Assembly (NCBI GenBank): GCA_037833965.1
Contig: AP031358.1
Span: forward strand, 10,114,001 to 10,178,000
Direction: 5' to 3'
Length of the DNA stretch: 64,000 bases
Origin: Marchantia polymorpha subsp. ruderalis
Taxonomy: Eukaryota; Streptophyta; Marchantiopsida; Marchantiales; Marchantiaceae
In this document: positions 9,441 to 48,400 of the stretch, piece by piece
Layout of the letters: every line of letters begins with the position of its first letter
How positions within the stretch are numbered: position 1 is the stretch's first letter
The notes under the pieces: model-generated
Seen by the model: only the letters and a program-made list of their open reading frames with translations
Database searches by the model: none
What the model was told of the DNA's origin: nothing
Made by a program: the position numbers and the translations under genes

Positions 9441-12260
9441 ACGAAAATCATGCTTGCATCTGTAGCGTAAGTCGTGCCTCAGTCTCTTCTCCGCGATGCT
9501 TATCGAGGCTCTGTTCTCCCTTCACGGTCGTCTAGATTTGGAACATACATTTGTGCACGTCCTTTTCGTCCAGTGGGCTCGCGTGGCCCACTTAAAGGAA
9601 AGAAAGCGTGGCCGGTGGCCGCAACATCTTACCACGGATACATGGATGGGGCCGACGGGTGACAAAGGGTGTACCGGGAAAGGGACAAACTCCCATTGCT
9701 ATATGTGGCGAATTGGACGAACGGAGTTTGTGTCTGTTAGACTCAACCTCCAGCCACTCCGGACTCCGGACCCTACTCCCCAGCGGGACAATGCGAGGCC
9801 GTACGGATCCTCTGGCGTCAGCTGGACCAAATCTGTCTGAAAAGGAAGTCATTGGACAAAGAACGCCCATCTTTTGATATTTTGCATTAACGCATCCGGT
9901 ACCGACCTCCCCGTTCCTGCTGCGGGTTCTTGCCTCACAACTGTAAAGGACAATCCCGGTCCCTGTACCGAAGGAACGGTTGAGTACAACTCTCGTTGAA
10001 GAAATGCAATCCGGTACGAACTCAGTTCCCCTTGTACCTAGCCAGGGACCTCTTTAACCCACATTCGTCGAATGGACACTCCATGAACATTGTCTTGTGT
10101 TTCTGGGAAGGTCTCATTAGAGGGTGCTCGCAATTTCTTGTGCATCAAAGGAGTGATTATAATCACTCATTGTCATCCGCTAACGTTCCTTACATTTCAC
10201 TTTAGATCCGAGTAAACTTTTAATGTGGAAAGGAGGAAAACCTCTATTATGCCATTTCTCTCATGATGAGAAGAGAAAAAATTCCGAATCGTTATGTGTT
10301 ATAAATACATCCCAGAGAAACAAATTGTTTAAGCTTTGATTGACATGTCATTAAGTCTGCTCTGAACCGTTTCGTTTTCATTTTCTCCCTGATTTGCTTC
10401 CAGTCTCCAATCTACTTCATGTCTTCGGCTACAACAATTTATAATTTTCACACACTAAGGGATGCTCTATCGGATTAGAGGGGTGCACTTTCGATGTGTT
10501 TTGGGAAGTGAATTCAGAGATATTGAATTAAATTTACGTCTAGAAATGCAAGAATATTACCTGTTGAGAGCTTTGAAGCACAGGTGGCCTCTATCCTTTT
10601 GAAAATAGATAAATTAAATTTTGGTATTCGATTCTGAAGCGTATTTTATCTGCATGGAGAACATGAAGAACCTGTTAAAATTGATTGAATCAATTGAAGA
10701 TCAGATTATCTTTGACACCCAATCGTTGGCAGAACTGGACCAGAGTCAAGACTTGAAGTTCTGCATGAAGTTGGCAATCTTTTTATGGAGCAGTTTTGCA
10801 ATCTAAGCAAAGTTTAACGTAGTGGAAGAACTCAAACAACTTTTGGTCTTTGTGCACAGTGAACATCGATTTCGTTTTGACAGACCAAGCTGATTTTAGT
10901 GAAACTTAAAGGATCATCTCCTCAACTCATTGAGTTCTTTGGAGGATTATCATGTACACTTCCATGTCACCTTAGAAAACAATTTTCTAGTGCTGAAATG
11001 GAAACGATCTTCACATATAAAAAATAACACCCATATCTCTCGAAGGTGTGCTACATTGCAGTCAAATTGGGACAAAAGCGAAGAAAACACAAGAGATTTG
11101 TACTATACTCCGTATATTCCTTGTTTTGTTGTAACACGGAACATAGGGAAAGTGCCCTATATAGAGAGTCTGATGGTAATATATACAATGTATCAATAAT
11201 CAAGTAACCAATATTTATCTTTTGCGCAGGACAACCGAGGGCTCGCCATTTCGGAGGGTCAAAATTAAAAGTAATAGAAGCACAGTAGGATCAGCGTGAA
11301 TCCCCGAAACTTTGATCTCATAGTCTTGCAACTCTGATCCACGTATATATGGATCGACTAATTTACACCAAATACCAAAGCGCGTACCGAGGTCAACCCG
11401 GCTCAAGTTGCATGTAAAAATAACCGGTTCCGATATACAGGATTCCGGATGTGATTGTCCAGGATGTGACCGGAATCGTACCCGAGTGAATGGGGGCCAA
11501 GTGGATAGCTAAAAAGGTATACGAATCAAGGGAACACGAATATGTCTGTTTCGCAGCCGGTGGCAGGTGGAAGACCCGGTGGAGGCGGTTCTTTAGCGCG
11601 AGCGCGAGCGCGAGGGATGACAATATAGTACTGAATACAGGCGCAATCCTCGTACAAGAACAATCCTGCAACGGGCCACTGCATTAAATCTCAACGCGAC
11701 TCCGTCGCCATTATCACGACCTGACCAGCGCTTATTCGGTCCCACCGTCCCATGTGTCCTTCTGGGACAGATCTAGTCGATCGCTGGATTTGAATGTCTG
11801 GAGAGTATCAGAACCTCGAGAGGGCAAAGCCAACGCAATTTCGATTCGATGCTGGAAGCAGAGAAGCACCCAAGTACTCTCCGTCGTTGTCACGACGACG
11901 GCGCCGTCAACTGCCAGATCCAACCGTCCCCAGCTTGTTCCGGGTGACAACCGCTAGTTTGGGGTCACCGGAGTCAAGTGAGCACTTTTCATTGCAAGCA
12001 GCCATTTTTGAGTTCGACTCTAAAAAGATGTCCAGGAACCGACCAGAGGAATGTGGCGGGCACAGTGAAATCACCGACCCGACAAAATGCTTAGAGAATC
12101 TGAGTGACACGGTTTGTACCTTGTAGCCTTCGAATTGTGGGTATTCCCCTCACCAATATGACGTTCAAGCTCCGAACATGCCTCTTCCCCCGGCGTCTTA
12201 GGGCCCGGCCTCTTGGATTATTGGACGAAATGACATGTGGCGACACCGACCACCTTTTCT
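9440..12260. other. GC-richer island, no recognised gene
   Basis: Composition is clearly more balanced than the flanks. Several overlapping ORFs of 60-114 codons occur on both strands (for example 9496-9840 and 11794-12126). None shows a recognisable motif, and their overlap in several frames is what GC-rich non-coding DNA gives. A short GCGCGA repeat lies near 11598-11613. Degraded exons or regulatory DNA of an unrecognised gene are possible but unsupported. Confidence 0.4.
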
Positions 12261-33917: not shown

Positions 33918-34206
33918 TTCGCTCCCTTGTATCCGAATTTGGCAGTAAGTTACACCGAGGTAAAAACGTTGAACTGAGCTAGGTTTTTAAGGTTGACCCT
34001 AGTTTTTTATAAGAAGGGGAGAAAAACTAGGTTTGAGGAGAAAAGAAACAATTACAAAACATCTCCGAAGACTCAGTAAAAGTTTTCACTCGAGCTGGAT
34101 ATATTTCCCTCAACTCTTAATTTACCTTAGATTGATGTCTGTAACTATTGTCGTATGTTACGAAACTGATACTTACGAAAAACATACTCGTAACTGAGGT
34201 AACTTT
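33918..34206. other. Short spacer between LINE and gypsy element
   Basis: No gene is seen. Motifs such as GTTACGA and CGTAACT recur here and in the neighbouring terminal repeats, so it may be a diverged piece of the same LTR family. It ends in CTTT directly before the gypsy element's outer repeat. Confidence 0.35.
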
Positions 34207-34324
34207 TGTCGTGCGAATACATATCGCCATACACTCTACATTGCTGACATGCTACTCACATACACATATGCACACACATACACACATATAAGGCGCGAGA
34301 GAGTACACACTCAAATGTCACAAC
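34207..34324 (-). repeat. 118-bp repeat A, outer copy
   Basis: The sequence begins TGTCGTGCGAATACATATCG and ends GTCACAAC. It matches 34620-34737 with a single difference. Both copies contain CA-rich runs. They flank the left 293-bp repeat, giving an A-B-A structure. Confidence 0.9.
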
Positions 34325-34617
34325 TGAAAAGAACGGGAAAGTCCCCACTGGAATTCCCGTCGGTCAATTACCCTACTGGCAACAAACCGTCACCTTCACA
34401 AACATGAGTCAAGCCCAATCCACTCCACACTCGGAGAATCCAGGTCGACGCAAAGGGGAAAGTCACTCTACGCTTTCAACGCTTCCAGGCTCGACTCGAA
34501 GAACTAACGTTCTTCGAGCCGTCCCCGACTGTATACCCCTCGTGACCCGAACTCTAACTTCACGGCTAAATATAGTAAGTGTCTAAACTTCGTGAGCCGA
34601 CTCGTAACTACATGACA
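34325..34617 (-). repeat. 293-bp terminal repeat B, left copy (LTR or LTR part)
   Basis: It is bounded by TG...CA on the plus strand and about 97.6% identical to 46002-46294. Together with the inner 118-bp repeat it could form a 413-bp 3' LTR starting TGTGACATTTG on the minus strand, next to a purine tract. Confidence 0.8.
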
Positions 34618-34619
34618 GC

Positions 34620-34737
34620 TGTCGTGCGAATACATATCGCCATACACTCTACATCGCTGACATGCTACTCACATACACATATGCACACACATACACACAT
34701 ATAAGGCGCGAGAGAGTACACACTCAAATGTCACAAC
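34620..34737 (-). repeat. 118-bp repeat A, inner copy
   Basis: It differs from 34207-34324 at one base. Its minus-strand start (TGTGACATTTGAG) follows directly on the purine tract at about 34738-34746, so it is probably the true beginning of the 3' LTR. The right-hand 293-bp copy lacks this block. Confidence 0.85.
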
Positions 34738-34906
34738 TCGCCCCCCTAGCTGGCGGTCAGGTCCCTCTGACTCCTAGGTAGCCCTATCTACAACTACATG
34801 CTATACACCTTCGTGGATGCGCGAACCAGTAGGCCGGATGCTATGTCGCCCCATCGTTAGTCGCCTATCTGCAATTCATAACATGTGAAGATCAAGTCAT
34901 CTACCC

Positions 34907-35644
34907 CTATGAAGTACATCGAGGACAAACCCATCGTCCAGCCGGAATAACATCGATAGGCGGAGTCAGGCACAACATGTGCCATCCCCTAGAACACCTA
35001 TCACACACCAACATACGGGCCGCCTGACCAGCCGACCTACACAGCATGCACCTCAAGCCAGCACGTACTATCGCTAAGCTTGGGTCCATAGTGCCATCTA
35101 CGTTTGGGAGGTGGCATGGCGCACAATTGCGCACATGATCCTTCCAAACAACGCCGTCACGACCCTCCAACATGAGAACTCTAGAAGGTAACACCTCCCG
35201 CACCCGCAAGATTGTGCGTCCCGCCGTCACATCCAATGTCGTCGGTGCAGTCTGCTGTAGATAGACGTAGTCTCCCACATGGAATCTACGAATTGATGGT
35301 CGATAACCTCCTCCCCGAATGATTGCATACCGCAACGTATCTCTATGTTGAGCAATCGCAAGATTCTCAAACGCTGCAAGCATAACTCTCCGAAAGAGCT
35401 CTACACGTTGAGAACATACGCTCACCCACATATTCGGGTCATCAAGGTTCACCACCTCGCTAGACTCACGACGAATCGATGTTGGCAAGTCTGGATCTCG
35501 GCCGTACAATAGAAAATATGGTGAGAAGGAAGCCAAGGATGCCTGCCGACTGAACCGATATCCCATGGCCAACCACGGTAACTGGATATCCCAGTCCCCA
35601 AGATGACCTTTCTGCAAGCCATACTTGCGCAACGCCCTCTTCAC
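34907..35644 (-). CDS. Gypsy integrase C-terminal part with terminal PHD finger
   Basis: This 245-residue frame begins in the end of the integrase core (DWDIQLPWLAMGYRFSRQAS, then SPYFLLYGRDPDLP). It passes a GPY/F-like module (HVGDYVYLQQ, then LMLEGRDGVVWKDHVRNCAP). It ends in a complete C4HC3 pattern: CMLC, then CDRC, GWHMLC and WVCPRC. This is the PHD-finger signature. PHD fingers read histone H3 tails, often H3K4 methylation state. At an integrase C-terminus, where many plant gypsy elements carry a chromodomain, it could steer insertion to particular chromatin. The reader specificity cannot be told from sequence alone. Part of a fossil element. Confidence 0.85.
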   Translation of the reverse strand: MKRALRKYGLQKGHLGDWDIQLPWLAMGYRFSRQASLASFSPYFLLYGRDPDLPTSIRRESSEVVNLDDPNMWVSVCSQRVELFRRVMLAAFENLAIAQHRDTLRYAIIRGGGYRPSIRRFHVGDYVYLQQTAPTTLDVTAGRTILRVREVLPSRVLMLEGRDGVVWKDHVRNCAPCHLPNVDGTMDPSLAIVRAGLRCMLCRSAGQAARMLVCDRCSRGWHMLCLTPPIDVIPAGRWVCPRCTS

Positions 35645-35677
35645 CGTCTGTACAACACGTTCAGCTAAACCATCCGC

Positions 35678-35995
35678 CTATGGATGATCTCGCGACGTGG
35701 TCCGATGATCAATCAGTGCCTTGTCGCACAAGACCTGAAACTCACCCTGAAACTCTGTTCCCTGATCGGTCAACACCTCAGCTAGTGCACCATAGTGACT
35801 AAGCACTCTGTCAAGAAAAGCATACGCTACTCCCTCACTTGCCTTGTCAGGTAATGCCACCAACTCAATCCACTTGGAGAAATGCTCCACCATCACCAAC
35901 ACATACCGATGATGTCGTACAGTCAAAGGTAGTGGTCCAGCAAAGTCCAAACTCCAACGGTAACCCAACCCCATGATGGGTAATGGATGTAACAC
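35678..35995 (-). CDS. Gypsy integrase catalytic core part
   Basis: The frame shows WSLDFAGPLP with the first core aspartate, VEHFSKWIELVALPDK, and VLTDQGTEFQG with the second aspartate. This is the RNase H-fold integrase core (DDE type) that joins element ends to host DNA. The neighbouring segment to the left carries the rest of integrase. Part of a fossil element. Confidence 0.8.
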   Translation of the reverse strand: MLHPLPIMGLGYRWSLDFAGPLPLTVRHHRYVLVMVEHFSKWIELVALPDKASEGVAYAFLDRVLSHYGALAEVLTDQGTEFQGEFQVLCDKALIDHRTTSRDHP

Positions 35996-36081
35996 TGGTG
36001 TCGGGGCATTGAATGATGCCCTCGATCACAAACCATGCAACGTGATACCAACTGCTGTACCTGAGTATGCATACCACGCCA

Positions 36082-36567
36082 TCAATACTGACCAAGGAGT
36101 AAGCTGTATGTACGCTTCACTCCAAAATGTCCCAACTCCTCATGAGCATGCCTCACAATGCGTGCTCTCTGGGCTGGATGTGGTACTACTCGTACCCTAC
36201 CGTCCTCCCAAACTCGGAGAACATGTGATCCCTCCAATCGGTACCTCTTGGCCCGTTGGAGAACACGATCTCGCTCCTTGGCACCCACTGTGCCTGGCAC
36301 CATGCTGGTCCGTAGGAACTCCAACACCAATGCATCATCGTGTACATCACGCTGATCCACACCACCATCCTCAACCTCAGGATCTGGAGATCGACCATCT
36401 ACTCTCTGACTAGAGTAAGATGTCAGATGATCCTCTCTGCTGGAGTTCCCACGTAACCAACACATGAAGGCAGATGCATGCCAACCAGGCACCATCTCCT
36501 CATCAACCTCACCATGCCATCTAGCTCCAGTGTCATCCTCCTGGCTAGTGCATGGGTTTCGACTCAA
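36082..36567 (-). CDS. Gypsy integrase N-terminal (HHCC zinc-binding) region
   Basis: Toward its end the frame reads RIVRHAHEELGHFGVKRTYS, the histidine half of the HHCC zinc module that precedes the integrase core. The earlier part (DALVLEFLRT, then RVLQRAKRYRLEGSHVLRV) matches the usual linker after RNase H. Part of a fossil element. Confidence 0.75.
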   Translation of the reverse strand: MSRNPCTSQEDDTGARWHGEVDEEMVPGWHASAFMCWLRGNSSREDHLTSYSSQRVDGRSPDPEVEDGGVDQRDVHDDALVLEFLRTSMVPGTVGAKERDRVLQRAKRYRLEGSHVLRVWEDGRVRVVPHPAQRARIVRHAHEELGHFGVKRTYSLLLGQY

Positions 36568-36578
36568 ACCATCGGCAT

Positions 36579-38054
36579 CTAGGTTCGCAACTCCAAACCA
36601 TCGGCATCTAGGTTCGCAACTCCAGGTCTATGCACCACCTGAAAGTCGTACTCCTGTAAGATGAGAGCCCACCGTGCAAGCTTCCCTGTAAGCTTGTCGG
36701 ACTCCATCAACCACTTGAGCGGTTGATGATCAGTAACAAGGGTGAACTGCGTACCAAACAAGTAACACCTGAAGTGCGCCACAGCCCACACCGCTGCCAA
36801 GCACTCTCCCTCGTACGAACTATACCGCGACTCCGCTGCATTGTTCGAACGGCTAGCGTACGCAACCACAAACTCCTTGCCCTCATCATCACGCTGCGTC
36901 AACACCGCTCCAAGTCCCAACATACTCCAATCAGTGTGCAATTGGTATGGACGACCTCTGATAGGTCTCCTCAAGATGGGAGCGGCCACCAACCTGGCCT
37001 TGAGTTCAATAAAAGCTCTCTCCTGCTCATCTCCCCATTGCCACTCCTGATCTGACTTCAGCAATTGGTTCAAAGGCTTGGCTATAGCACTAAACCCCTT
37101 CACATACCTCCGGTAGTAGTTCGCTAAACCCATGAATGCACGAACTCTACTCACATCCGTGGGACAAGGGATGCGTGCAATAGCCTCCACCTTTGCTTGC
37201 TGAACTCCTAAACCACCTAGGTATATCACATGACCCAAGTACTCAACCTTCTCCTGGAAGAACTTACACTTCACAGGATTTAACCTCAAACCATGAGCCC
37301 TCAATCGCTCAAACACAATCTGCAAGTGTATCTGGTGTTGCTCCACAGTGTCACTAAACACCAAGATATCATCAATGTAACATCTGACAAAATCCAGCCC
37401 CGCCAGGATTCTGTCCATAAACCTCTGAAACTTGGCAGGTGCATTCTTCAACCCAAAGGGTAAGAATCGCCACTGATACAAACAATCCTTGCCGTGGGAG
37501 TTGACGCCCCAAAACGTTGTCTTGGTTTTGTCCTCCTCCCGAATTGGCAACTGATGGTATCCTGCCCGAAGATCCAAAGTACTAAAAATCCTCGCATGTC
37601 CCACCACATCGAAGATCTCCTCAGGTGTAGGCATGGCATACTTATCGGATTTCGTCTGCCGATTGATAGGACGGTAGTCTCCACACATGCGCCTATCCGT
37701 GTAGTTGCCATGTACATCCTTCTTCACCGGCATGACAGTGGCTGACGCATACTCACCATGCGATAACTCCACTAGTCCAGCCTCTAGTAGGTCCAACGTC
37801 CTACTCCGAATCAAATCTCTCTCCATCTCACTATATCGATAAGGACGACGGAAGATTGGCGTATCACTAGCCAATTCTATCCGTATACCGGGTCCAATCA
37901 ACGCACCCAACTCCTTCATACTGAAGGCAAAACAACTCCTATAGTCTCGTAGGAATTGTGTCAATCGTCGCCTCTCTCCTCCTGTGATCTGGGAACCAAG
38001 CAATGGCTCCCATTCCTCCTCCATAGGCACACTAGAGGGAGGCGACACTGTCAA
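36579..38054 (-). CDS. Gypsy reverse transcriptase and RNase H
   Basis: This 491-residue frame opens with a linker (FSMKELGALIGPGIRIEL) and reaches VMPVKKDVHGNYTDRRMCGDYRPINRQ, the fingers of gypsy reverse transcriptase. FSTLDLRAGYHQLPI holds the first catalytic aspartate, FLPFGLKNAPAKFQRFMD the conserved FGL block, and CYIDDILVFSD the catalytic YIDD box. The connection and RNase H follow: LHTDWSMLGLGAVLTQRD, then YSSYEGECLAAVWAV and VTDHQPLKWL with the D-E-D residues. It would turn element RNA into DNA in virus-like particles. Upstream neighbour is the methyltransferase. Part of a fossil element. Confidence 0.92.
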   Translation of the reverse strand: MTVSPPSSVPMEEEWEPLLGSQITGGERRRLTQFLRDYRSCFAFSMKELGALIGPGIRIELASDTPIFRRPYRYSEMERDLIRSRTLDLLEAGLVELSHGEYASATVMPVKKDVHGNYTDRRMCGDYRPINRQTKSDKYAMPTPEEIFDVVGHARIFSTLDLRAGYHQLPIREEDKTKTTFWGVNSHGKDCLYQWRFLPFGLKNAPAKFQRFMDRILAGLDFVRCYIDDILVFSDTVEQHQIHLQIVFERLRAHGLRLNPVKCKFFQEKVEYLGHVIYLGGLGVQQAKVEAIARIPCPTDVSRVRAFMGLANYYRRYVKGFSAIAKPLNQLLKSDQEWQWGDEQERAFIELKARLVAAPILRRPIRGRPYQLHTDWSMLGLGAVLTQRDDEGKEFVVAYASRSNNAAESRYSSYEGECLAAVWAVAHFRCYLFGTQFTLVTDHQPLKWLMESDKLTGKLARWALILQEYDFQVVHRPGVANLDADGLELRT

Positions 38055-38060
38055 TGGTTG

Positions 38061-39059
38061 CTACGCTACACACTGCAAAGAAGGGTTCTCCGTACCCTCC
38101 TTCGTAGCCACCTCCACCTGAGAATCCTCTCCAACTGCATGGGCTGCTACTCTGGCAAGTCCTTTCGTCACGTCCCATAAACTCCAAGGGTGACGAATAT
38201 CTCGCCTGTCGCCCCCAGTCATTGCCACTAACGTCCCGATAGGCAATGAGCTAATAAGTGGTGTTACAATCACCAAATCTGCGCGCAAACGGCGTTGCTC
38301 GGCCAAACCCAAGCTCACAATCCACGTCAAGCAGTTCAGGTCCATAGCCTGACCCAAAACCTGACGACGCGACGCCTCTGAAACTGAAGAAGCCGCGGTC
38401 ACACCAGTAAGAAACCCCATCGCATGCTCTCTCTCATCAGCGTTGGGCTCCACCAACTGATGTAGGGTACTGTCCCATAGTAGTCCAGGTCCCCCATCAC
38501 GATATGCATGTGATGCCGGATAACTAACAAATGTAGGTAAAGCCATCCGAGGCTGACCTACGCGGTTCACCAACGCCATAGGTGACCTGTCAGCAACTCT
38601 CACTACTTGAGAGTGCCGGGAAACATCCAAGATACTGTCAACGGTGAGTGTAGTATCGCGCTTCACCGAATCATAGGCATGACGCAATATCTCACGTGGC
38701 AAAAGGTTGGTCCACCACAAACGTGCACGATGCGCCCGTGATCCAACCCTCGCAGCATCCAACAATACTGCTAATCCAATCCATGCTCGGACTTGATGGA
38801 CACTCGCCATCAACTGGGCCCGAGTGTCACCCAACAATGGTACGTTCTCCAGAATGTATTCTGGAGAACGCGTCTGCTGCACTTGGAGATGACGTATCAC
38901 TCGCATCATCTCCCAAAACATCCGAGATCTGGGATTATGCAACCCTGTCCCATGTCCAGCGCGTGTGTGTCCCTTACATGGCCAGCCCGCAATCACCATA
39001 TCAATATGGCCAACGCGGTCAAGGTCTGGCGCCCCCAGCAACGAAATGTCTGAAGGCAA
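38061..39059 (-). CDS. DNMT3-type cytosine-5 DNA methyltransferase, catalytic part, in gypsy element
   Basis: This 332-residue frame holds the later motifs of C5 methyltransferases in canonical order. IDMVIAGWPCKGHTRAG is motif IV with the catalytic cysteine at about residue 28. ILENVPLLG is motif VI, and GSRAHRARLWWTNLLP is motif VIII. EREHAMGFLTGVT and RRQVLGQAMDLN are the motif IX-X region. AHRARLWWTNLLP closely resembles AHRARYFWGNLPG of animal DNMT3, and the MGF...RRQVLG spacing also fits DNMT3 rather than DNMT1/CMT. The enzyme family transfers methyl groups from S-adenosylmethionine to cytosine, here possibly to the element's own DNA. It lies between protease and reverse transcriptase, an unusual place for a host-derived enzyme. 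Part of a fossil element. Confidence 0.85.
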   Translation of the reverse strand: MPSDISLLGAPDLDRVGHIDMVIAGWPCKGHTRAGHGTGLHNPRSRMFWEMMRVIRHLQVQQTRSPEYILENVPLLGDTRAQLMASVHQVRAWIGLAVLLDAARVGSRAHRARLWWTNLLPREILRHAYDSVKRDTTLTVDSILDVSRHSQVVRVADRSPMALVNRVGQPRMALPTFVSYPASHAYRDGGPGLLWDSTLHQLVEPNADEREHAMGFLTGVTAASSVSEASRRQVLGQAMDLNCLTWIVSLGLAEQRRLRADLVIVTPLISSLPIGTLVAMTGGDRRDIRHPWSLWDVTKGLARVAAHAVGEDSQVEVATKEGTENPSLQCVA

Positions 39060-39092
39060 CGCCTTCTAGAATTCTCGGACAGCTGATCGCGG

Positions 39093-40466
39093 CTACAACG
39101 AAGGAAAACGCCGCATCAACTGTGCAACATGTCGTGAAGAGACTCGACGAGCAGTCTCGTCCTTCTCCACATATAAGTATTTCCGTACGAGAATACCTGA
39201 CTGCAACACTGCAGCCAAACCTTTGCTGATTCCACCAAAAAGATCCAGCAAACAAACGCCCTCTGAGGAATACTCCCATGCAATAGGTGTAGTAACCAAT
39301 GGAGACAATGCGCTAAAACCACTAACGAGCCGATCAGCTGAAGCCCTGTCTGGCTCTGCTAGCAAAGAGGCTTCACTCCAAGCCTTTCTCACCAACCTAT
39401 CAGCCTCCAATTGTAGTGCCTGGCACGAACTCCACAGTGGAACATCTAAGGGTGAAGCCACCGCCGCTGTGAAACTCACAACCTCCTCCACATCCTCGTA
39501 GAGTGAGGTATCGTCGGCAGACATGTTCCCCTCCAACAAGTCATCGGGCCAGGTAAGCACTCCGCTAAAACCCGCAACAGATGCCAAGACCGCTGATGAA
39601 GATCCAAGAGGTTGATCCCGAGAAATAAATCTCACTGGCAGCTCGCTAAGACGTCCATCTCCGGACTGCCAACCAGGACGATATGCGGCAGTCTCCGTCC
39701 AATATTCCATCCGAAAGCCCATCGGGTATAACACCACTCCACCAACAAGCACATCATATGACTCTGCTAATGTAATTACAGCACGAATTCCAAACTGCGA
39801 GCTATCATGAGGGTGATCATGCCTCAACTGCACCACTATGCTCTCCCTAGTCATAAAGTAAGACCTGTTGCTTGCGCCACCAAGGGATGTCTGGATCTGG
39901 AATGGGCAAGGTTCCAACTCTGACCTTCGAATGCCCAAACTAATGCATGCAGCCTTGCCCAACATCAAGGGCTGTGCACCAGAATCCAACAAAACTCTGG
40001 CTGGGACATACACCTGTCCAGTAGAACTCACTAACCGAAATAGACCACTTCGGTTGTCCACCATACATACACCAGGAACAATACTCTCGCGATCAATGGC
40101 TGGGTGAGCTGGTAAGGACTCCATCCTCGCCGCTGCGGCCCGCCAAGTCGTCTCCTCGAACAATGTAGACGTTGAGGATGGGTCCTCAACTGTATCCTCA
40201 CGTATCTCGGCACTCGTAGCAGCGACTCTCCCATGCTCACACGACGTGGCTGCTACCCGAAATACTCGAGCCAAATCAATACCAGAGTCTATCAACTCCG
40301 TGGCTGAAAACAATGGAGATCGCAAGACTGAAGTGGCCATCCGCATCACTGCACTAGATGGCACGTCTGCGTTCACAACAGATGATGTAAGAACCTCAGT
40401 TCTCACTCTAGTGTCACTAAGCGGTGCAGGTCTCATAGATGAACTGCTACCCACCTCTAACAACAA
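39093..40466 (-). CDS. Gypsy aspartic protease followed by methyltransferase motif I-II region
   Basis: In this 457-residue frame a retroviral-type aspartic protease is visible at about residues 145-180 (VYVPARVLLDSGAQPLMLG, with the catalytic D at about 161). The end of the frame (residues 403-457) changes to VCLLDLFGGISKGLAAVLQS, the S-adenosylmethionine-binding motif I. It then reads YLYVEKDETARR, the motif II region. Both fit DNMT3 (SLFDGIATGLLVL, then IASEVCEDS). The intervening 200 residues are not recognised. The arrangement indicates that the methyltransferase is encoded as part of the pol region, after protease. Part of a fossil element. Confidence 0.82.
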   Translation of the reverse strand: MLLEVGSSSSMRPAPLSDTRVRTEVLTSSVVNADVPSSAVMRMATSVLRSPLFSATELIDSGIDLARVFRVAATSCEHGRVAATSAEIREDTVEDPSSTSTLFEETTWRAAAARMESLPAHPAIDRESIVPGVCMVDNRSGLFRLVSSTGQVYVPARVLLDSGAQPLMLGKAACISLGIRRSELEPCPFQIQTSLGGASNRSYFMTRESIVVQLRHDHPHDSSQFGIRAVITLAESYDVLVGGVVLYPMGFRMEYWTETAAYRPGWQSGDGRLSELPVRFISRDQPLGSSSAVLASVAGFSGVLTWPDDLLEGNMSADDTSLYEDVEEVVSFTAAVASPLDVPLWSSCQALQLEADRLVRKAWSEASLLAEPDRASADRLVSGFSALSPLVTTPIAWEYSSEGVCLLDLFGGISKGLAAVLQSGILVRKYLYVEKDETARRVSSRHVAQLMRRFPSL

Positions 40467-40508
40467 AAAGGACTGGGGAAGTCTAGACTGACGTCCACCC
40501 TCACCCCT

Positions 40509-42053
40509 CTAAGGGTCCAACTCCACAGTCGCACCACGTGGCTCTGAAGTGCGAGCACCACCTCTGGTCACTGCAACTGATGCCTCAACCTGTGCTGCAC
40601 TGGCCAAATAGGAGAAATCCTCTCCCTCGTAAGATGTGGAAGTGCTCGCCCCCAGACCAGCCATAGCAGCAAGCCTCTGCTCCAACTGCTCAATCCGAGC
40701 AGCCATAGCGCTCTCTGTGGCAGAAGTAGCACTAGCTGCGGTACGCTCAATGGCCCCGGTACCTCTACCACCTCTGCCACCTCGGCCTCGTGGAGCATCA
40801 CCTCCACGACCTCTACCTCCAGATCTCAACTCAGGATGAAGTTCAAAGCAACGCTCTCGAGGGTGACCCGGTCGATGACAATGATCACAGGTCACCTGTG
40901 CCGGCTGTGGCCTAGCATGTGGAGTTTGTGCCTCTCGCTCCTGGGGACAATCCTTCCTCATATGGCTACCTCCGCATGTCCAACATGACGGTCCCTGTGG
41001 CTGGCCCGAGAATGAAGGCAGTGGTGGCCGCGCACTAGGCTCTCTGTGACCTGAAGGATGTCGTGTATGACCTCCACGACTCCCACTTATGGGGCGAGAC
41101 TGTGCTGGGCTATGTGGGATACGCGAGGTAGTGGTCGTGTCTCTCGCAAATGTAGACGTCACCACCCTCTCCTCCACCATGTTAAGCTCAATCTTCTCAG
41201 AAAGAGCAAACACATGGGCTAATGTGGGTGATGAGTCGCTCATGAGAGTAGCATCACGCACTCTCCTCCGCAACTCTCTGTCCAGGATCCGATACCAGTA
41301 CTGGACAGCTTGTGCCTCAGTCACACCGTGAGTAACTGAGATGAGCCGTCGCATACGAGTGTATGCCTCACGAAGACTCTCACCAGACTTCCGCTCAAAC
41401 TCCTGGAGGCTCCTCAACTTCTCCGTTTTCACCCCCTGATAATTCTTCCTCAATCTCTGGAAGAACTCAGGAATGGGGCTAAACAAAGGTACGCCACTAG
41501 CATCTCCCCTCGTGCTGCCACCGGCAATGCTAACAGTACCGCTGCTGGTACTAGTACCAGTTGCGCCAACTGCTCCACTGGTACCCTCGTTGATGCTACT
41601 ACTCGCACCTCCACTGATGCCGACACTCGCACCTCCATTGGTACCCACACCACCCTGGGTAATGAATGAGTAGTTCGGAGACCAATGCCGTCTCCATGCA
41701 TCAATCTCTGCAGCATACTTTCTCCCAAACTCATGATAATCGTCCATGGGAGGCCCCTCCAAATGCTGGAATAACCCCTTCCATGCAAAGAAGGGTGTAA
41801 ACAACGTGGGGTTACGCAGAAACTGCATATCACACCACGTGTCGAACTCCTGAATAAAATCATCAAGCTCGATGGTGCCCACTGCACCAGAGTAACGTCG
41901 AGGGCCCTTCGCGGCCCCGTACATTCCGTCCATGTCCCAAATCAATGGGGTTGGAACACTAGACGATATCACCACCAAAGACTCTGTGTCTGCAACACTC
42001 TGGTCTTGCTTCGCAACAACTGGCGAAATAGGTGAAGGTAGCCGATACCTCAA
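40509..42053 (-). CDS. Gypsy gag-like capsid/nucleocapsid protein
   Basis: The 514-residue frame has the layout of a plant gypsy gag. There is an N-terminal region, a capsid-like helical part (YQGVKTEKLRSLQEFERKSG, then ESLREAYTRMRRL), and two zinc knuckles near the C-terminus (CWTCGGSHMRKDC and CDHCHRPGHPRERC). A basic RG-rich tail follows (GGRGRGGDAPRGRGGRGGRG). A low-complexity GGAS/GT-rich linker lies near residues 130-190. Gag packages element RNA in particles. It is the first clearly retroviral frame of the element. Part of a fossil element. Confidence 0.85.
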   Translation of the reverse strand: MRYRLPSPISPVVAKQDQSVADTESLVVISSSVPTPLIWDMDGMYGAAKGPRRYSGAVGTIELDDFIQEFDTWCDMQFLRNPTLFTPFFAWKGLFQHLEGPPMDDYHEFGRKYAAEIDAWRRHWSPNYSFITQGGVGTNGGASVGISGGASSSINEGTSGAVGATGTSTSSGTVSIAGGSTRGDASGVPLFSPIPEFFQRLRKNYQGVKTEKLRSLQEFERKSGESLREAYTRMRRLISVTHGVTEAQAVQYWYRILDRELRRRVRDATLMSDSSPTLAHVFALSEKIELNMVEERVVTSTFARDTTTTSRIPHSPAQSRPISGSRGGHTRHPSGHREPSARPPLPSFSGQPQGPSCWTCGGSHMRKDCPQEREAQTPHARPQPAQVTCDHCHRPGHPRERCFELHPELRSGGRGRGGDAPRGRGGRGGRGTGAIERTAASATSATESAMAARIEQLEQRLAAMAGLGASTSTSYEGEDFSYLASAAQVEASVAVTRGGARTSEPRGATVELDP

Positions 42054-42099
42054 TCCACTCCGCGTAAATCCACCGCGGTCCTCAACAAGACCACTAGAC

Positions 42100-42660
42100 T
42101 GCTCCGTGATGACGAGACCTCAACTGGCACCACTGCCAGATCTCCACCCAATAACCCAATCCGCCCCTGACGTCGTGCCGCACTAAGTTACTCTAGCCCT
42201 ACTAGCTAAGGGGTATGGGCAACCTAACTTGTCATCACAGCAAGAAGACTCTCACGGTCTACTGGTCATCACTCCAGTCTCACCGTGAGAGAAACATAGA
42301 TAGACCGGCCGGTGATCAAGTCCAGTCCGCTATCGCCAGCACACAGGAGTAAAACTACTCCGGAAATCAGCGTCACCCCTACACGGGCGCGCACCAAGAA
42401 GCAAGACTGGAGAGGATCCAAACACAAGCAACCAGCTAGCAACGACTCTCCGGTCTAAAGGAAACACATCACAAAAGAAGACAACACACACGAGACATCG
42501 CATCGCTTCGCGATCCCGATTCGATCTCCATCGCCCTCCATTTACGTGGGCCTCCAGTGCCTATGATGCCCTCTTCCACCAAATCGCAAACAAAGATTGT
42601 TTGAAAACTTCTTTTTTTTTTTCTTCTCTTTTTTTTTTTTTCACACAGGGGTCACACTGC
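42100..42660 (-). other. Region upstream of gag with T/C-rich tract
   Basis: Non-coding sequence lies before gag on the minus strand. A pyrimidine tract of about 35 bases (42608-42642; A/G on the minus strand) precedes GTCACACTGCCCC. No primer-binding site complementary to the usual initiator methionine tRNA was recognised. Confidence 0.45.
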
Positions 42661-42819
42661 CCCTCAACAAACACACTACACACTGAAAGCTCAATATATT
42701 GACTACGTCATATATATATTTACAATGCTTTCAAAACATCACGTTTACAGGTAGTGAGACCGGGTGCAAACTCCCGATCCCTTCAGTACCTCCTGTCTCA
42801 ACGCTACAAGTATTTGCTA

Positions 42820-43182
42820 TCAATCCTTTGGGAGACTATCAAGAAATTTCTCTAGTACAAGAATTTCTTCTGAAAGACAGTCTTGAACATACTGAACATC
42901 TCTCAAATGGTCAGCAATATCCTGCGGAAGGTCTAGTAACTCATCCTCACATACCCTGTACTCTAGGCCGGATTCCTCTAGAAGTTTTTCCACGGCTAGT
43001 GCCTCGTCCCAATCCAACCCGGAATCTTTTTCTTCTACCACAACAGGGTTTACCAGATTCTCTCCTACTTGAGGCTGCACTGTCACCTCCTGCTCCTGAT
43101 CACGTTCCTCGGTGCTGACGACCTCCACTGTCTGGATTTCTTGTATATCACTGTCGTCTGCCTTTCCTCCAAGCGGCATTTT
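42820..43182 (-). CDS. Acidic ORF of unknown function between gag and right terminal repeat
   Basis: From the ATG at 43182 (MPLGGKADDSDIQ) the frame encodes about 120 residues ending at TGA near 42820. It is rich in Glu and Asp (VVEEKDSGLDWDEALAVEKL, then EDELLDLPQDIADHL) with a helical look toward the end (EEILVLEKFLDSLPKD). An in-frame upstream ATG could add six residues. It has a favourable start context and a biased, protein-like composition, but no family is recognised. It may be a host-gene exon caught in the element, an extra element gene, or part of a host gene on this strand. Confidence 0.4.
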   Translation of the reverse strand, partial: KMPLGGKADDSDIQEIQTVEVVSTEERDQEQEVTVQPQVGENLVNPVVVEEKDSGLDWDEALAVEKLLEESGLEYRVCEDELLDLPQDIADHLRDVQYVQDCLSEEILVLEKFLDSLPKD

Positions 43183-43199
43183 CCCTTCACGCGTCAACA

Positions 43200-44830
43200 C
43201 TTCACTGTGTACAAGGATTGTTTACAGAGTATCTGTAAACTAAATCTGAAGGGAAAACTAAAAATTGTTTAACTCCAAAACTATCACAAAGTTTTAGAAG
43301 AGCACCAAAAACTTTTTACTGTAAAGTATCACTCATGGATATTTACCACAGTAAAAATGAAAGGAACTGTGAAACCTGTGTAAAGTTAACCTCCTTCTAT
43401 GAACAGCTAAAGCAATTTGTTTATCTCTACCGGTTTTCAAGCACTGTGCATAGCCTGAAACCACAAAGAGACCTCTTGCTATCTTGTAGAACTAAGACAT
43501 AAGAATTTTCATCACACCTCAGTTGTACATCACTATAATTTCTGGAGAACGTACTGAACTGTAAACTTCATATGTCTATGTCCCACCTCAGAAATCTTAT
43601 ATCCTTCTAGTGGGACCTCTCTGTCAGAAGTGTAAAGCTTCTGAGTGAGCAAGGAAAGTGGGTAGAAAGCACGTGAGGTGGATTGAATGAGCGCTGTGTG
43701 TGATGGAGAAGAGTTTCATACACTTATCTCCTCGTCCATCCTGTCCAACGAAGGAAACTAATGGGAGAATACACTGTGGGATATCTGAGTAGAATCACCG
43801 AAGAGTGTAAGACAACACACGACATCTCATTCGTCTGGGGTTTATGACATAGTGAAGTGAAGGACGATGTCTTTTCCGATCCGCATCAGCTGGAGCCTCC
43901 CAAAGCTGAAAGGAACTTCTGTGTCTATTTCCCGTCTGTCCTGCCGTCGAACGAGAACTGATACAGATTCTGCTTCCGTGTACTATGGGTTTGCCTACAC
44001 CAAATCCTCCAGGTTCGAAATAAGCTTCAGTCGCAGGCAGCCCAGCTGGAAGAGGCTGATTCTCCGTGGAGGTATAAGCCAACTTGGATGCAGCCTGTGC
44101 AAGCCTATCTCACGGAGTAGGAATCTTGTCGATAGAAGGGCACTCTGGTATTGGAGCTGCCGGGAGTTATCGCGAAGACCAACTACCAGAATTGGTATTC
44201 CATCAGGAGAGTTCATAGTCAGATGCTTGACATAATCCTGCGAAGTACTTCAGTGCTTGAGACTTCCAGAAACAGAAGATTTATGGACTATCACAAAACC
44301 TGCCCCGGAACTAGATAATCTGTATTATCTGACCACACCAGGATTTTAGTCTTCATCTATTGAGAGGAGCACCATTGCCCTTCACTCTGTGTTTACGGTT
44401 GAGTAAACGCTTGAACGTATAATGTCTCTCGCTGGACTAGGCGGGATGCCAAACTATGCGAAAACTGAACCAGTTGTATCAATGGATGATGAACCAAACT
44501 CTGTAGAAAAGAACTTAGCAACCATGAGTGTCCTCATCCCGGTTGCGAGAAAAGATACGGACGAGTTCAGGCCCAGAATGCTCGTAGTTGTCCTCTCGTT
44601 GTTCCCCGTAATAACAAATAGGGTCTTCAAAGGGCTCCCAACCGATACCGATACTAGGTCAAATGAGAACGGAACCACAAGTTTAGGGTAAACAGTAAAC
44701 TCCGCCTCGCTCAAACTCGCCAAATATAAGTTGCACGTAACAGAGCTTTGACTCTAAAGTAAAGTGTCATTGTCGAACAAGTAATAAAGCCCTAGAACCC
44801 TTCGAACTCCTCCGTATAAAACAACGGTCC
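43200..44830 (-). other. Gene-like, non-retroviral stretch inside the terminal repeats
   Basis: On the minus strand several protein-like segments appear in different frames. About 44216-44100 reads MNSPDGIPILVVGLRDNSRQ. About 44082-43985 reads AYTSTENQPLPAGLPATEAY, then FEPGGFGVG. A segment within 44700-44500 reads GWEPFEDPICYYGEQRED. Possible splice acceptors precede some of them. They may be exons or decayed pieces of one host gene, but no consistent model could be built. Nothing retroviral is seen here. Confidence 0.3.
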
Positions 44831-44833
44831 TCC

Positions 44834-45007
44834 TCATTGACCCCTCAGTGAGCTCCAAACACCACTAACCCACTTGCGCACCAAGAAAGCCCCATGCTTC
44901 AACCAAGTTATTGGGTGTCCCATAGAACAGCGGCAGATGAAGACTACCGGGGCTGCTACCAGAGCCGCATAAACTAGCTCGTCACCAACACCCTCGATAA
45001 AGGGCAT
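44834..45007 (-). pseudogene. Fragment resembling the N-terminus of a TMUB-type ubiquitin-like membrane protein
   Basis: From the ATG at 45007 the frame reads MPFIEGVGDELVYAALVAAP followed by VVFICRC. This resembles the start of animal TMUB1/TMUB2 (MALIEGVGDEV followed by a membrane segment). TMUB proteins sit in the ER membrane and carry a ubiquitin-like domain. No ubiquitin-like domain is visible downstream here, so if homologous this is only a first exon or a fragment. A GC-rich stretch of about 900 bases to its right could be the corresponding leader/promoter. The match covers few residues and is from memory. Confidence 0.3.
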
Positions 45008-45069
45008 CGAACCCACTTTTAGTACGCCTTTCTTCTCTGTTGAATATTTACCTCGGAGAAATCCTAACA

Positions 45070-46001
45070 ATCTGCAAATTCAGCATACGTTTTCCGAGAC
45101 CTTCTCAAAAGACCAAAAATCGCCCTTTCTCGACACGATCCGCTCGTGTGAAAGCTGTTCAAGCGCCTCTCATCAAAACCTGCTCTCGGGAGCTGGACTT
45201 TTCCTTCTTCCTGGAGCGACTTGGACGCGGTCAATTTCATGCCCTCGCCAGAACCCACTAATCGAATGCCACCTCAATTTCTCGAGGCCAGGCAACCCAA
45301 GGGCCAGAAGCGCGGGACGATCCACCCAGTGATGACAGTCGTGACTCCCCGAGAGGCCCCTCCTTCCTTCCTGGTCGCAGAAACAAACCAGCAATTCCCG
45401 AACCTAGAGCGCTAGGCAGGCGAGAGAGAGGGTGACAAAACGGTGATGCAGAAGGCCACACTGCGTTGGCCGAACAAAGATGCTGCTGTCGCAAACAGTT
45501 GGCGAGAAGCGCAATGGCACAGCAGAGCCCAAGCAGCCCGTGCCTGCAGCAGCAGCGGAAGGCGAACCAGAAAGCGAGAGAACCGACGCCGCCTTCACCA
45601 GTGACAAGTGGACCTGGGCGTGAGATCAATCAAACAATCAATCGCAAGGAAAGCTCTCCACTGCCCGAGCTCGAGGGTCGGCTTTCGAAGCAGCGAAAGC
45701 CTCGATACCAAACAGAACAATGCACCAACGACGCCACACGAACGAAAACTGAGTGCTATCCCGAAACTTCAGTTTTCAGACTCCGACTCAATCTTCAAAA
45801 TCCCTACTTCCGAACATCAAATCTGAGAATCTTTCTGCACATATTTCTCGATTTAAAACCCTGATTTCCTCAGACTTTCAAATACAGAAATTGCCCAAAG
45901 GTATAAACAAACCACAAAAGAGAGAAACACCCGACGAAAACACAAAGAGGCAGAACGGAACGTAAAACGGTTACACACAAAAACGTCGAGAGTTCTTCGA
46001 G
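45070..46001 (-). other. GC-rich stretch before the right terminal repeat
   Basis: Non-repetitive and GC-rich, with CAG/GCA-rich parts near 45480-45560. It looks like a leader or promoter of a minus-strand gene (the TMUB-like fragment). ORFs in several frames overlap without recognisable motifs. Confidence 0.35.
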
Positions 46002-46294
46002 TGAAAAGAACGGGAAAGTCCCCACTGGAATTCCCGTCGGTCAATTACCCTACTGGCAACAAACCGTCACCGTCACAAACATGAGTCAAGCCCAACCCAC
46101 TCCACACTCGGAGAATCCAGGTCGACGCAAAGGGGAAAGTCACTCTACGCTCCCAACGCTTCCAGGCTCGACTCAAAAAACTAACGTTCTTCGAGCCGTC
46201 CCCGACTGTATACCCCTCGTGACCCGAACCCTAACTTCACGGCTAAATATAGTAAGTGTCTAAACTTCGTGAGCCGACTCGTAACTACATGACA
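46002..46294 (-). repeat. 293-bp terminal repeat B, right copy
   Basis: Direct repeat of 34325-34617 with about seven differences. It begins TGAAAAGAAC and ends CTACATGACA, then CTTT. Here the 118-bp A block is absent on both sides, so this copy is either a shortened LTR or a different form of the terminal repeat. Confidence 0.8.
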
Positions 46295-48400
46295 CTTTCT
46301 AAGAGGAGGGACAAAATTGAAAATTGTTTTATCATTGTGGGTAAGTTGTTTAATGGAATTCGACTTCGAGTGAATTGTCGAACAAATAGATGCACAGACC
46401 AAACCACATTTATACCTTTTATAGTACTTATTCAAGAGAAGGACGAAGTGGGAAGCAAATAAGATGGAAAAATCCATCCAGCAACGCAACTAAAAAAAGT
46501 GAAGAAACTACAATATCATGATACAAATTAGATCATACATTGAGTACATTACTAAAATACTGTTCACAGGGAATAGAAGCATTTGATATCGTATCACATA
46601 CCTAATTTGCTTTATATTCTTTATAGACAATGAAAACATGTGATCTCAAATAAGGTATACAAAAAGTTCAATGAATAATAAACATGTTCTCCTGTGTAAA
46701 TTTGTTTGAAAGGTATCATATCAGGCTCTGGAACATTCACTCTCAATCTTTATCCGTAATTCCATTTAATTTCAATGTTAAAAGAATTTAAGATATTGAA
46801 ACCTCTATGTACTTAATTAATTAAAAATCTTTTAAACTGTCTTCTTTTTACTTGCCTTCATTTCAAGATTATGACAAATCTTCCGCCTACAAACTCCTCA
46901 ATGAGTATAGACTCATGAAAACCATTGTTGCATCAAGAATATTGAAGTTTAGCTCTGATGTATGAATCAAGCATAGGCTGAACAACCATTAAAAGCAATA
47001 AAAATCATTTTCTCTTATCCAATCATGTTCAGTATGTTATGTTAATTTTTATTGACTAGTATAAAATTTCTAGAAGAAACTAACTGTGGTTCTCACATTC
47101 TGACTATGGAAGTGTATTATATATAAGTGCAAAAGAAAATATCATCTCTGAAGATGTTTTGCCTTACAAGAACATACTGTATGTAACCTTGCATTTACTC
47201 TTGACCATGAAAGTCACATTTAATTATGCTAGGCATACAGTTTTACTAAAACGTGTTATAAAAAAGATTATTTCTTCCTTCTTCTTTTAGCTTACAAGCA
47301 AAATGCTGTAGTCTTTAGTCGAGGGTCAAATTCGAAATAAAAACATCATATGTCTTTATAGTAAAAGCATGTTACAGTTGTGTCAAATATGTTTATAAAT
47401 ACAGTTTTACTATCTTAGCCGCTTTACACATCATTCTCGAAGCTCTTCAATACCACCATTTTGTAGATTCAGATGATATAACCCAAAAATAATTACTCAA
47501 CCTTCTAGTTCCATAGACAAAGCTTTTTATAATAAGTCTCCATCTCCTCTAAAAACCCTAAAATTTGTCACAAACTGACTTTGAGCTAGTTCTACTTTAA
47601 ATTCAGTTTGATTTCTCCAAATCTAAACTTATTTAATGAAGTCTCAATCTCTCTTCTCTATAAGTATATTATCTAAACAATGAAATTATCTATGCTTTTG
47701 ACGCGATTAGATTGTATTGAAGTTTTGGAAGTGATATGCAGTTATGAAAATTCCATGCTTCTGCTTCCTTTTTCAAGTTTTGTTGGCCTTACAATATTTA
47801 TTGTTTCCCCAACATATCCATTTATAATGGCTTTAAAATATGGTTTTACTGTTTGATTCTTATGAAAGATGTTACACCTGGAGCTTTTTGAAAAACTCTA
47901 CAAGTAATAATCTCGCTCCGTGCTTGTGATTTTAGAACAACCTGAACGAAGTTTTGTATTTGAAGCTGATATAAATATTCACTTTTCACCTTAGTCTTAA
48001 AGACATAGATTAGACTCAAAGACTTAGATTACGCATTCACAACTAAACTTTTATTTAACACATTAAGCAATCATGTTGTTGCAACTTTACCTCACCTCGA
48101 CGGTCTAGACACTTTAAAATGACTCTCAGTTGATTGGTTCTCATGACAGAAGATACATGAAAATAAAATTATAATAAAAAAAAATAACAAATGAAAAGAT
48201 TTCAAAGTTTTTAGATGTAAAATATAATTCAAAATTTTGAATGACAACAAAAACACATTATAATGTGTCATTGAAATCTGGTAAAGACCTCTCACCTAAA
48301 ACAAAAAAGTTTCTAATGTCACATTGTTTTAATGATGTTAAATTTCCAACACCAATTCTAATTCACGCGTAGGCAGTAGTCAGCAGGCAGAAAATAGAGC
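46295..48400. other. AT-rich intergenic stretch, nothing recognised
   Basis: No coding pattern or named repeat is seen on either strand. Confidence 0.55.

Follow-up and report, generated by a model that had tools for sequence, protein, structure and literature searches.

A high-copy gypsy-type retrotransposon of Marchantia polymorpha carries a DNMT3-type cytosine methyltransferase

Introduction

Does a retrotransposon of a liverwort carry its own DNA methyltransferase (MTase), and if it does, is the enzyme part of how the element works? The question is raised by a stretch of 64,000 nucleotides of the Marchantia polymorpha subsp. ruderalis genome (GenBank assembly GCA_037833965.1, contig AP031358.1, positions 10,114,001 to 10,178,000), which we call the window and whose own numbering is used below. 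The original prediction, made from the sequence of the window, was that a gypsy retrotransposon at 38061 to 40466 encodes a DNMT3-type MTase between its protease and its reverse transcriptase (RT). It pointed to MTases on algal retrotransposons, and that precedent is real: de Mendoza et al. (2018) describe the element KnitGypsy-Dnmt3 of Klebsormidium nitens (PMC5890265). We found a decayed copy of a Marchantia gypsy-type element in the window; the element is high in copy number and has a DNMT3-type C5 cytosine MTase as a working part, and of this identification we are almost certain.

Results

The element in the window. Read 5' to 3' on the minus strand, the element consists of a repeat B1, a primer-binding site (PBS), a 3.9-kb leader with a small open reading frame (ORF0), gag, protease, MTase, a UAG codon, RT, RNase H, integrase, a PHD finger, a purine tract, and a repeat array A1-GC-B2-A2. 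The gene order is that of Ty3/gypsy elements (gag, protease, RT, RNase H, integrase), with gag recognized by a weak profile match and zinc knuckles and the protease by its motif. The features are as follows.

46294..34207, minus strand: whole element copy with TGTC...GACA ends, 12.1 kb (repeat and end analysis)
46295..46298: 4-bp target-site duplication, 5' side, CTTT on the plus strand
46003..46294, minus strand: B1, the 5' repeat, promoter/R/U5-like, 292 nt, 97.6% identical to B2
45991..46002, minus strand: proposed self-priming PBS, ACTCGAAGAACT, complement of AGTTCTTCGAGT within B1
43650..45960, minus strand: leader cargo mosaic, with matches to other loci and one GT-AG intron removed
42823..43179, minus strand: ORF0, an acidic protein of 119 aa, present in four of the five leaders read
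40512..42119, minus strand: gag frame, with two zinc knuckles (40985-40947 and 40889-40848) and a weak PF03732 match below the cut-off
39500..40020, minus strand: aspartic protease region, extent approximate, motif LLDSGAQ at 39992-39972
about 38307..39266, minus strand: DNMT3-type cytosine MTase domain (PF00145, DNMT3A match, fold of a relative)
38055..38063, minus strand: in-frame UAG CAA CCA between MTase and RT, a type I readthrough context
36579..38060, minus strand: RT and RNase H (PF00078, PF17917, PF17919), YIDD at 37382-37365
35300..36200, minus strand: DDE integrase (zinc-binding, D, D, E), frame broken, extent approximate (PF17921, PF00665)
34910..35056, minus strand: PHD finger at the C terminus of the integrase (PF00628, E = 3.2e-11)
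34739..34750, minus strand: polypurine-tract-like GCTAGGGGGGCG
34620..34738, minus strand: A1 repeat, 119 nt (repeat analysis)
34614..34623: palindrome GACA-GC-TGTC at the A1/B2 junction, proposed internal integrase site
34326..34617, minus strand: B2 repeat, 292 nt (repeat analysis)
34207..34325, minus strand: A2 repeat, 119 nt (repeat analysis)
34203..34206: 4-bp target-site duplication, 3' side, CTTT on the plus strand

The interval first proposed for the element leaves out its leader and gag at one side and, at the other, integrase, PHD finger, and the terminal repeats. The MTase does lie between protease and RT as proposed, but it ends the gag-protease frame, and a UAG at 38063 to 38061 separates it from the RT.

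The enzyme. Pfam family PF00145 matched the window ORF at 39065 to 38061 (minus strand) with an E value of 1.3e-8, passing the curated cut-off, and matched an open copy with an E value of 6.4e-10. MTase motifs I, IV, VI, VIII, IX, and X lie in canonical linear order at 39251 to 38334, with no DRM-type rearrangement, and the predicted placement of this series after the protease and before the YIDD-type RT was confirmed. A sequence search of the PDB returned DNMT3A first (E = 1.1e-9), with DNMT3A and DNMT3B ahead of HaeIII, 4onj (a plant enzyme which we take to be DRM), HhaI, and DNMT2; with the Pfam match above cut-off, this bears out the DNMT3 type. An AlphaFold model of P0049, a database relative sharing 80% identity with the Marchantia domain, had a predicted local distance difference test score (pLDDT) of 88 and a predicted template modeling score (pTM) of 0.87. 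A Foldseek search with it placed DNMT3A/B catalytic domains first (E = 1.2e-18, target TM 0.84). As modeled on this relative, the MTase fold is DNMT3A/B-like. The Marchantia MTase is also 94% identical to a Marchantia polymorpha database protein, P0001.

The catalytic residues (Cys-Gln in motif IV, Glu in ENV, and the two Arg residues of motif VIII) are invariant in a 10-row alignment and invariant or at least 90% conserved in a 31-row alignment, and they are retained in relatives whose identity to the Marchantia domain is 36 to 71%. Host DNMT3b exons were seen at a separate locus (L020, G000 C6:12459429), with a DUF3444 domain downstream and a motif IV that reads PCQD.

A dead copy of a high-copy family. 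In the window, the gag-protease-MTase frame (ORF1) is kept as one frame with in-frame stops at 40511, 39095, and 39068, and the last two interrupt the MTase domain. A frameshift within the MTase was considered and rejected; a single frame is interrupted by stops. The frame that follows (ORF2) has two frame changes and two stops. Motif IV reads PCKG in the window and PCQG in 13 of 13 other copies, which were picked for long open frames. The window copy is dead and unable to make the enzyme. Private C-to-T changes of the window copy, relative to three other copies, were most frequent at CHG sites (27/687), followed by CG (14/658) and CHH (26/2334), with T-to-C changes at 21/3324. A copy that the host had kept methylated for a long time would be expected to decay in this pattern.

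The family was counted in a genome of 241 Mb in 9 contigs. An MTase profile scored at least 123 places, a few of which are host genes, and open frames of 1351 to 1365 aa were found at 24 of these 123 matches; the copies taken for the ORF study were picked for long open frames. Of 3766 RT candidates, the 100 best were scored, and all of these are 95 to 100% identical to the query. In at least 85 of the 100, an MTase match lies on the same strand no more than 6 kb upstream; the figure is a lower bound, since under the scoring cap the copy in the window itself ranks among the misses. The MTase-RT spacing is 1.1 to 2.2 kb in 83 of the 85. The association of MTase and RT is therefore beyond chance. 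The copy count that had been suggested as a check thus came out in favor of the element, and the enzyme is not confined to this locus. The UAG junction was found at 143 genomic sites and the internal A1-GC-B2 junction at 138 (both with at most two mismatches); the same searches with reversed junction patterns gave no genomic match.

Constraint on the enzyme. Between subfamilies A and B, the ratio of nonsynonymous to synonymous change (omega) in ORF1 was 0.130 for the MTase, 0.102 for the protease, 0.191 for gag, 0.247 to 0.303 for linkers, and 0.558 for the tail after the MTase. In ORF2, the values were 0.059 for RT, 0.050 for RNase H, and 0.083 for integrase. These values come from 10 + 3 open copies in 30 pairs for ORF1 and 6 + 2 copies in 12 pairs for ORF2, and the pairs are not independent of one another. 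Judged by these substitution patterns, the MTase behaves as an enzyme under purifying selection. Within subfamily A, omega was 0.245 for the MTase, 0.158 for the protease, 0.349 for RT, 0.411 for integrase, and 0.904 for the PHD finger (few changes); constraint appears weaker here, as would be expected of a mixture of young and dying copies. Synonymous divergence between the subfamilies falls along the element, from 0.58 in the protease to 0.30 in the MTase, with 0.15 to 0.38 in ORF2, which suggests recombination between subfamilies.

Relatives and ancestry. In the larger database search, the best 120 of 221 matches were listed. Named relatives came from Marchantia polymorpha, M. paleacea (P0142), Riccia sorocarpa (P0159), Calypogeia fissa (P0058, P0111, and others), Sphagnum fallax (P0017), S. 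troendelagicum (P0068), and Klebsormidium nitens (P0038), and many others are metagenome or EukProt proteins. The expectation that the phenomenon reaches another lineage was thus borne out in liverworts and Sphagnum. P0017, P0111, and P0159 are elements rather than host genes, as their MTase is linked to segments of protease, RT, or integrase.

An MTase tree was built from 56 rows (27 element MTases, 12 plant or algal host DNMT3s, one DNMT3A fragment, and 16 other MTases; the DRM, CMT, and DNMT1 sets stood outside our trees). All 27 of the 27 element MTases, that of the Klebsormidium element included, formed one group (100/99) apart from the 12 host DNMT3s, among them MpDNMT3a, MpDNMT3b, and the K. 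nitens host DNMT3. Thus, in the tree check that had been proposed, the Marchantia enzyme sided with the Klebsormidium element and not with plant DNMT3 genes. The tree is midpoint-rooted, so that a group is one side of a branch; two long element branches (P0046 and P0047) meet, and 11 rows are unlike the rest in composition. We favor a single ancient MTase acquisition in the gypsy lineage as the simplest reading of this tree; horizontal spread of element MTases between hosts is possible.

Two layouts occur among the relatives. Type I is protease-MTase-RT, and type II, in metagenome or EukProt relatives (P0027 to P0031, P0034, and P0039 to P0041), is RT-RNase H-MTase-integrase-PHD; a less complete type II member, P0048, has its MTase after the RT. 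Type II is one group in the MTase tree (100/98) and in the RT tree (100/97), and it is nested inside type I in the 56-row tree. The MTase therefore probably shifted its position within the polyprotein and was kept. In the RT tree, the sole MTase-free Marchantia gypsy family that was included joined the long-branched P0046 (88/91).

As for a viral source of the MTase, a scan of IMG/VR with the MTase alignment gave 17 loci with best segments of 28 to 48% identity, none near the full-length similarity between element MTases. A viral source was rejected on this distance, with giant viruses still possible. An element-like MTase, P0050, is filed under a Candidatus Obscuribacterales metagenome-assembled genome on a 2.4-kb contig, which is probably a misbinned eukaryotic contig.

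A probable leaky stop after the MTase. In 14 of 14 copies read, gag, protease, and MTase form one frame that ends in UAG CAR YYA, with ORF2 following directly in frame. TAG was present at 98 of the 100 junction sites listed out of the 143. Tobamoviruses have this same context, UAG CAR YYA, for type I readthrough (PMC5382211). Readthrough of the UAG would add RT, RNase H, integrase, and PHD finger to gag-protease-MTase. From this conserved context, we consider it very likely that gag-protease-MTase is made as one protein with a leaky UAG and that the RT-to-PHD part would be made by readthrough. Lying before the leaky stop, the MTase would reach Gag-like amounts, with little RT-integrase produced.

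Ends, priming, and integration. Four copies (the window, L018, L013, and L010) have the structure B1 ... A1-GC-B2-A2, and two (L011 and L014) have B ... A with no internal repeat. All six have TG..CA ends and a 4-bp target duplication, the marks of DDE integration (4 to 6 bp). A standard long terminal repeat (LTR) element has the same full LTR at both ends, whereas these copies have B alone at the 5' end and A-GC-B-A or A alone at the 3' end. We therefore call the element gypsy-type with permuted ends and not a standard LTR element. Split direct repeats are also the layout of DIRS and PAT elements. No tyrosine recombinase was found in Pfam scans of the coding region, and a DDE integrase is present instead. 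At L017, near 8941 to 9716, an extra A-GC-B unit lies at the 3' end with both B units shortened.

B1 and B2 are 97.6 to 100% identical within a copy (four copies), compared with 94.2 to 97.6% for B1 across copies of a subfamily, and the B tails correspond closely within a copy. B1 and B2 were thus probably renewed together. Directly after B1, ACTCGAAGAACT is the perfect complement of AGTTCTTCGAGT inside B1 in five of six copies; in the window, B1 has two C-to-T changes in the AGTTCTTCGAGT site, and B2 is intact. A TATA lies 29 to 30 nt upstream of the AGTTCTTCGAGT 12-mer in those five copies. In all five, the complementarity (at least 12 nt) was at least equal to the best of 2000 shuffles, and L014 has kept it despite an LTR that has otherwise diverged. 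A purine tract lies immediately 5' of A1. Given this pairing, reverse transcription would probably be self-primed from the 5' end of the RNA. For distances from PBS to UAG, the PBS was among the matches listed for 45 of 80 eligible UAG sites; 11 values exceeded 10 kb and one was 1.8 kb, probably nested or mispaired copies.

Such reverse transcription is predicted to yield cDNA whose LTR is A-GC-B. Two of these units in a two-LTR circle would meet as B-A, exactly matching B2-A2, and a cut at GACA-GC-TGTC would yield exactly B1 ... A1-GC-B2-A2. A one-LTR circle would give the B ... A form. This model accounts for every end observed in the six copies, and we put the proposal that integrase acts on the palindrome inside the LTR of circular cDNA just short of an even chance.

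The PHD finger. A Pfam scan of ORF2 found no chromodomain, the mark of chromoviruses, and a PHD finger in its place. By sequence, the closest solved PHD fingers are those of CHD4, KMT2D, PHF12, DPF, PHF21A, KDM5B, and others, and several of these bind unmodified H3 tails. The finger is present in 16 of the 20 relatives with an integrase core; P0017 and P0038, two of the four that lack it, look truncated before its position. Linked to the integrase, the PHD finger would steer insertion via the histone H3 tail, which we offer as a tentative reading of its sequence kinship.

Probable host-gene cargo in the leader. The leader is 3.6 to 4.2 kb long in five copies, which have only the last 1.1 to 1.3 kb or so in common. 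The first 2.4 to 2.9 kb are unlike between the five, except for 274 nt common to the window and L018. ORF0 has a dN/dS below 1 in all six pairs of four copies and matched no Pfam family.

The search for cargo sources covered four of the five leaders (the window, L013, L011, and L010), and in all four the cargo matches scattered genomic loci, which were compared without gene annotation. In the window, 45737 to 44821 consists of three adjoining pieces collinear with C8:6250570-6253139, with 1.4 kb and 0.2 kb skipped; the first skipped segment is a canonical GT-AG intron in the sense of the element (borders read by eye). Window positions 44832 to 44572 are a piece from C2, 44558 to 43650 match C8:12156965-12162559, and 45960 to 45729 are common to other copies. 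At 44114/44115 the join lacks GT-AG borders, and a template switch overlapping by CC may account for it. L013 carries six adjoining pieces, in order, from C8:13221870-13218722, and L011 carries four from C5:10380342-10381573; intron borders were unreadable in both. L010 is a weaker case, with two pieces and one gap. The whole L010 cargo recurs at another locus (98%), a second locus has most of it (94%), and parts of the cargo of other copies likewise recur elsewhere. We therefore regard the cargo as lineage-specific and not strictly private. From the collinear pieces and skipped segments, spliced RNA pieces of host genes very probably entered the leader repeatedly. They would join it as mRNA pieces, probably by template switching.

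Among further observations, cargo from scattered loci that differs between copies was noted at window 43650 to 45960 and at loci L023, L025, L026, and L027. The longest open frames in the L011 cargo are antisense to the element. We had presumed an ORF in the L013 cargo to be Mediator subunit 32; this was unconfirmed, with one Pfam match below cut-off to another family and none in the PDB. At L068, about 400 to 750 in element orientation, a RING-finger-like stretch lies within about 1 kb of the subfamily B copy L014.

Discussion

What might the element gain from an MTase? It would package Gag-protease-MTase in its particle, with the MTase in Gag-like amounts, then self-prime and make cDNA. The MTase would methylate the double-stranded cDNA before or at integration. 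A new copy would then arrive already marked, either hidden from sensing or set quietly into silent chromatin. Self-methylation of cDNA was proposed by de Mendoza et al. (2018; PMC5890265), and for the Marchantia enzyme we give it an even chance. As an overall account, an MTase gypsy element with a leaky stop, self-priming, circular integration, and cargo is the best explanation and, in our judgment, moderately probable.

Several results weigh against parts of this account. De Mendoza et al. showed MTase activity for SymbioDIRS but not for the Klebsormidium MTase, which was inactive in yeast, a result that they call inconclusive (PMC5890265). The CHG-rich decay of the window copy points to host CHG methylation rather than to the element's own enzyme. 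The observed/expected CpG ratio is 0.71 to 0.72 in the element (8 copies) against 0.79 to 0.82 in another Marchantia gypsy family (10 loci), only slightly lower, and decides nothing on self-methylation. The within-subfamily A omega values say less about constraint than those between subfamilies, and the value of 0.904 for the PHD finger, taken in subfamily A only, gives no sign of constraint there. By eye, the Marchantia PHD finger also lacks acidic residues present in the PHD fingers of some relatives. Finally, the B ... A ends of L011 and L014 could also arise by simple recombination of A1 with A2.

The most serious competitor, though an unlikely one, is that the enzyme acts on the host, methylating DNA at or near insertion sites or perturbing silencing. 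It shares a polyprotein with the integrase-linked PHD reader, and in type II relatives it sits directly beside the integrase; in Marchantia, however, the stop splits it from the integrase, and most of it would be made without one. We think it quite improbable that the MTase is a functionless passenger kept by chance in a young family. Such a reading would suit a dead window copy, a Klebsormidium enzyme inactive in yeast (PMC5890265), and the omega of just 0.245 within subfamily A. It fits poorly with an omega of 0.13 between subfamilies, with catalytic residues retained across relatives of 36 to 71% identity, and with a domain that outlived a move within pol. That RNA rather than DNA is the substrate is less probable still. 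RNA methylation is discussed for the SymbioLINE DNMT (PMC5890265), but both the sequence and the fold here are DNMT3-like, with Dnmt2, which acts on tRNA, matching far less well.

Two further alternatives concern origins. The split repeats could stem from transposition by a tyrosine recombinase, as in DIRS and PAT elements, which have the same repeat layout. The Klebsormidium element is in fact called DIRS-like in a figure legend (PMC5890265). With a DDE integrase, no recombinase in the Pfam scans, and 4-bp duplications with TG..CA ends in six of six copies, this is improbable. The MTase could have been captured recently and independently from a plant host DNMT3 in the Marchantia lineage. Both are DNMT3-like, and in the interpretation of de Mendoza et al. 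the Klebsormidium element gained its MTase within the K. nitens lineage (PMC5890265). On our data set, the MTase tree refutes such a capture, with 27 of 27 element MTases, Klebsormidium included, in one group (100/99) apart from host DNMT3s, and we find it scarcely credible.

Returning to the MTase-bearing gypsy element, its closest known counterpart is KnitGypsy-Dnmt3, which likewise has a DNMT3-like MTase in a gypsy Pol, purifying selection, and DIRS-like repeats (PMC5890265). The two enzymes fall in the same MTase group, which confirms shared ancestry, and P0038 has the protease-MTase-RT order. However, the Marchantia element has a UAG between MTase and RT where P0038, a partial model, is one frame, and it has a PHD finger in a region before which the P0038 model ends. 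It also differs in its more than 100 junction sites, proposed self-priming site, 4-bp duplications, host cargo, and land-plant host. In the text available, the DIRS-like layout of the Klebsormidium element is reported without an explanation by circular integration (PMC5890265). SymbioDIRS-Dnmt3 and SymbioLINE-Dnmt of Symbiodinium are also retrotransposons with a cytosine MTase, but they belong to other classes and are described as independent acquisitions (PMC5890265).

Self-priming is known from Tf1/sushi elements and has been proposed in plants for Tcn1 and TAR (PMC6317226, PMC4600332). Tcn1 and Tf1/sushi have a PBS complementary to the LTR or RNA 5' end, as proposed for the Marchantia element, but they are grouped with chromoviruses, whereas the Marchantia element has a PHD finger and split repeats. 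Capture of host-gene segments by LTR elements is known from Bs1 of maize and from rice and sorghum (PMC13317346, PMC3726574). The Marchantia copies differ from these in having multi-locus cargo that varies between copies at one fixed leader site of a coding family.

A 2019 paper states that such elements are not found in land plants, such as tracheophytes (PMC6338049), and their occurrence in liverworts and Sphagnum runs counter to that statement. Another paper, citing the 2018 work, places DNMT3 members in LTR Copia and DIRS elements of streptophytes and dinoflagellates (PMC12344493). In our literature search, which took in few subscription papers, no description of MTase-bearing elements of this kind from liverworts or mosses turned up. 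New here are the probable leaky stop, the split-repeat ends with their circular-integration model, the cargo that resembles spliced host genes, and the MTase between RNase H and integrase in some relatives. Together, an LTR-internal palindrome, a circularly permuted provirus from a two-LTR circle, self-priming, a Gag-fused MTase, habitual spliced cargo, and a PHD reader and DNMT3-type writer co-inherited through most of an old lineage, from algae to liverworts, may mark a distinct gypsy-type kind, a suggestion we make with some reserve.

With this element, the DIRS-like repeats of a gypsy-type element, a puzzling feature, can be given a concrete explanation, and its probable host-mRNA cargo would make it a natural recorder of gene capture. 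The tree points to one ancient acquisition of the MTase for the gypsy lineage. The question why a transposon would keep an enzyme that deposits a silencing mark can be pursued in few tractable hosts. Marchantia polymorpha lends itself to genetics, and with more than 100 sites and open frames at 24 of 123 MTase matches, the question is directly testable there.

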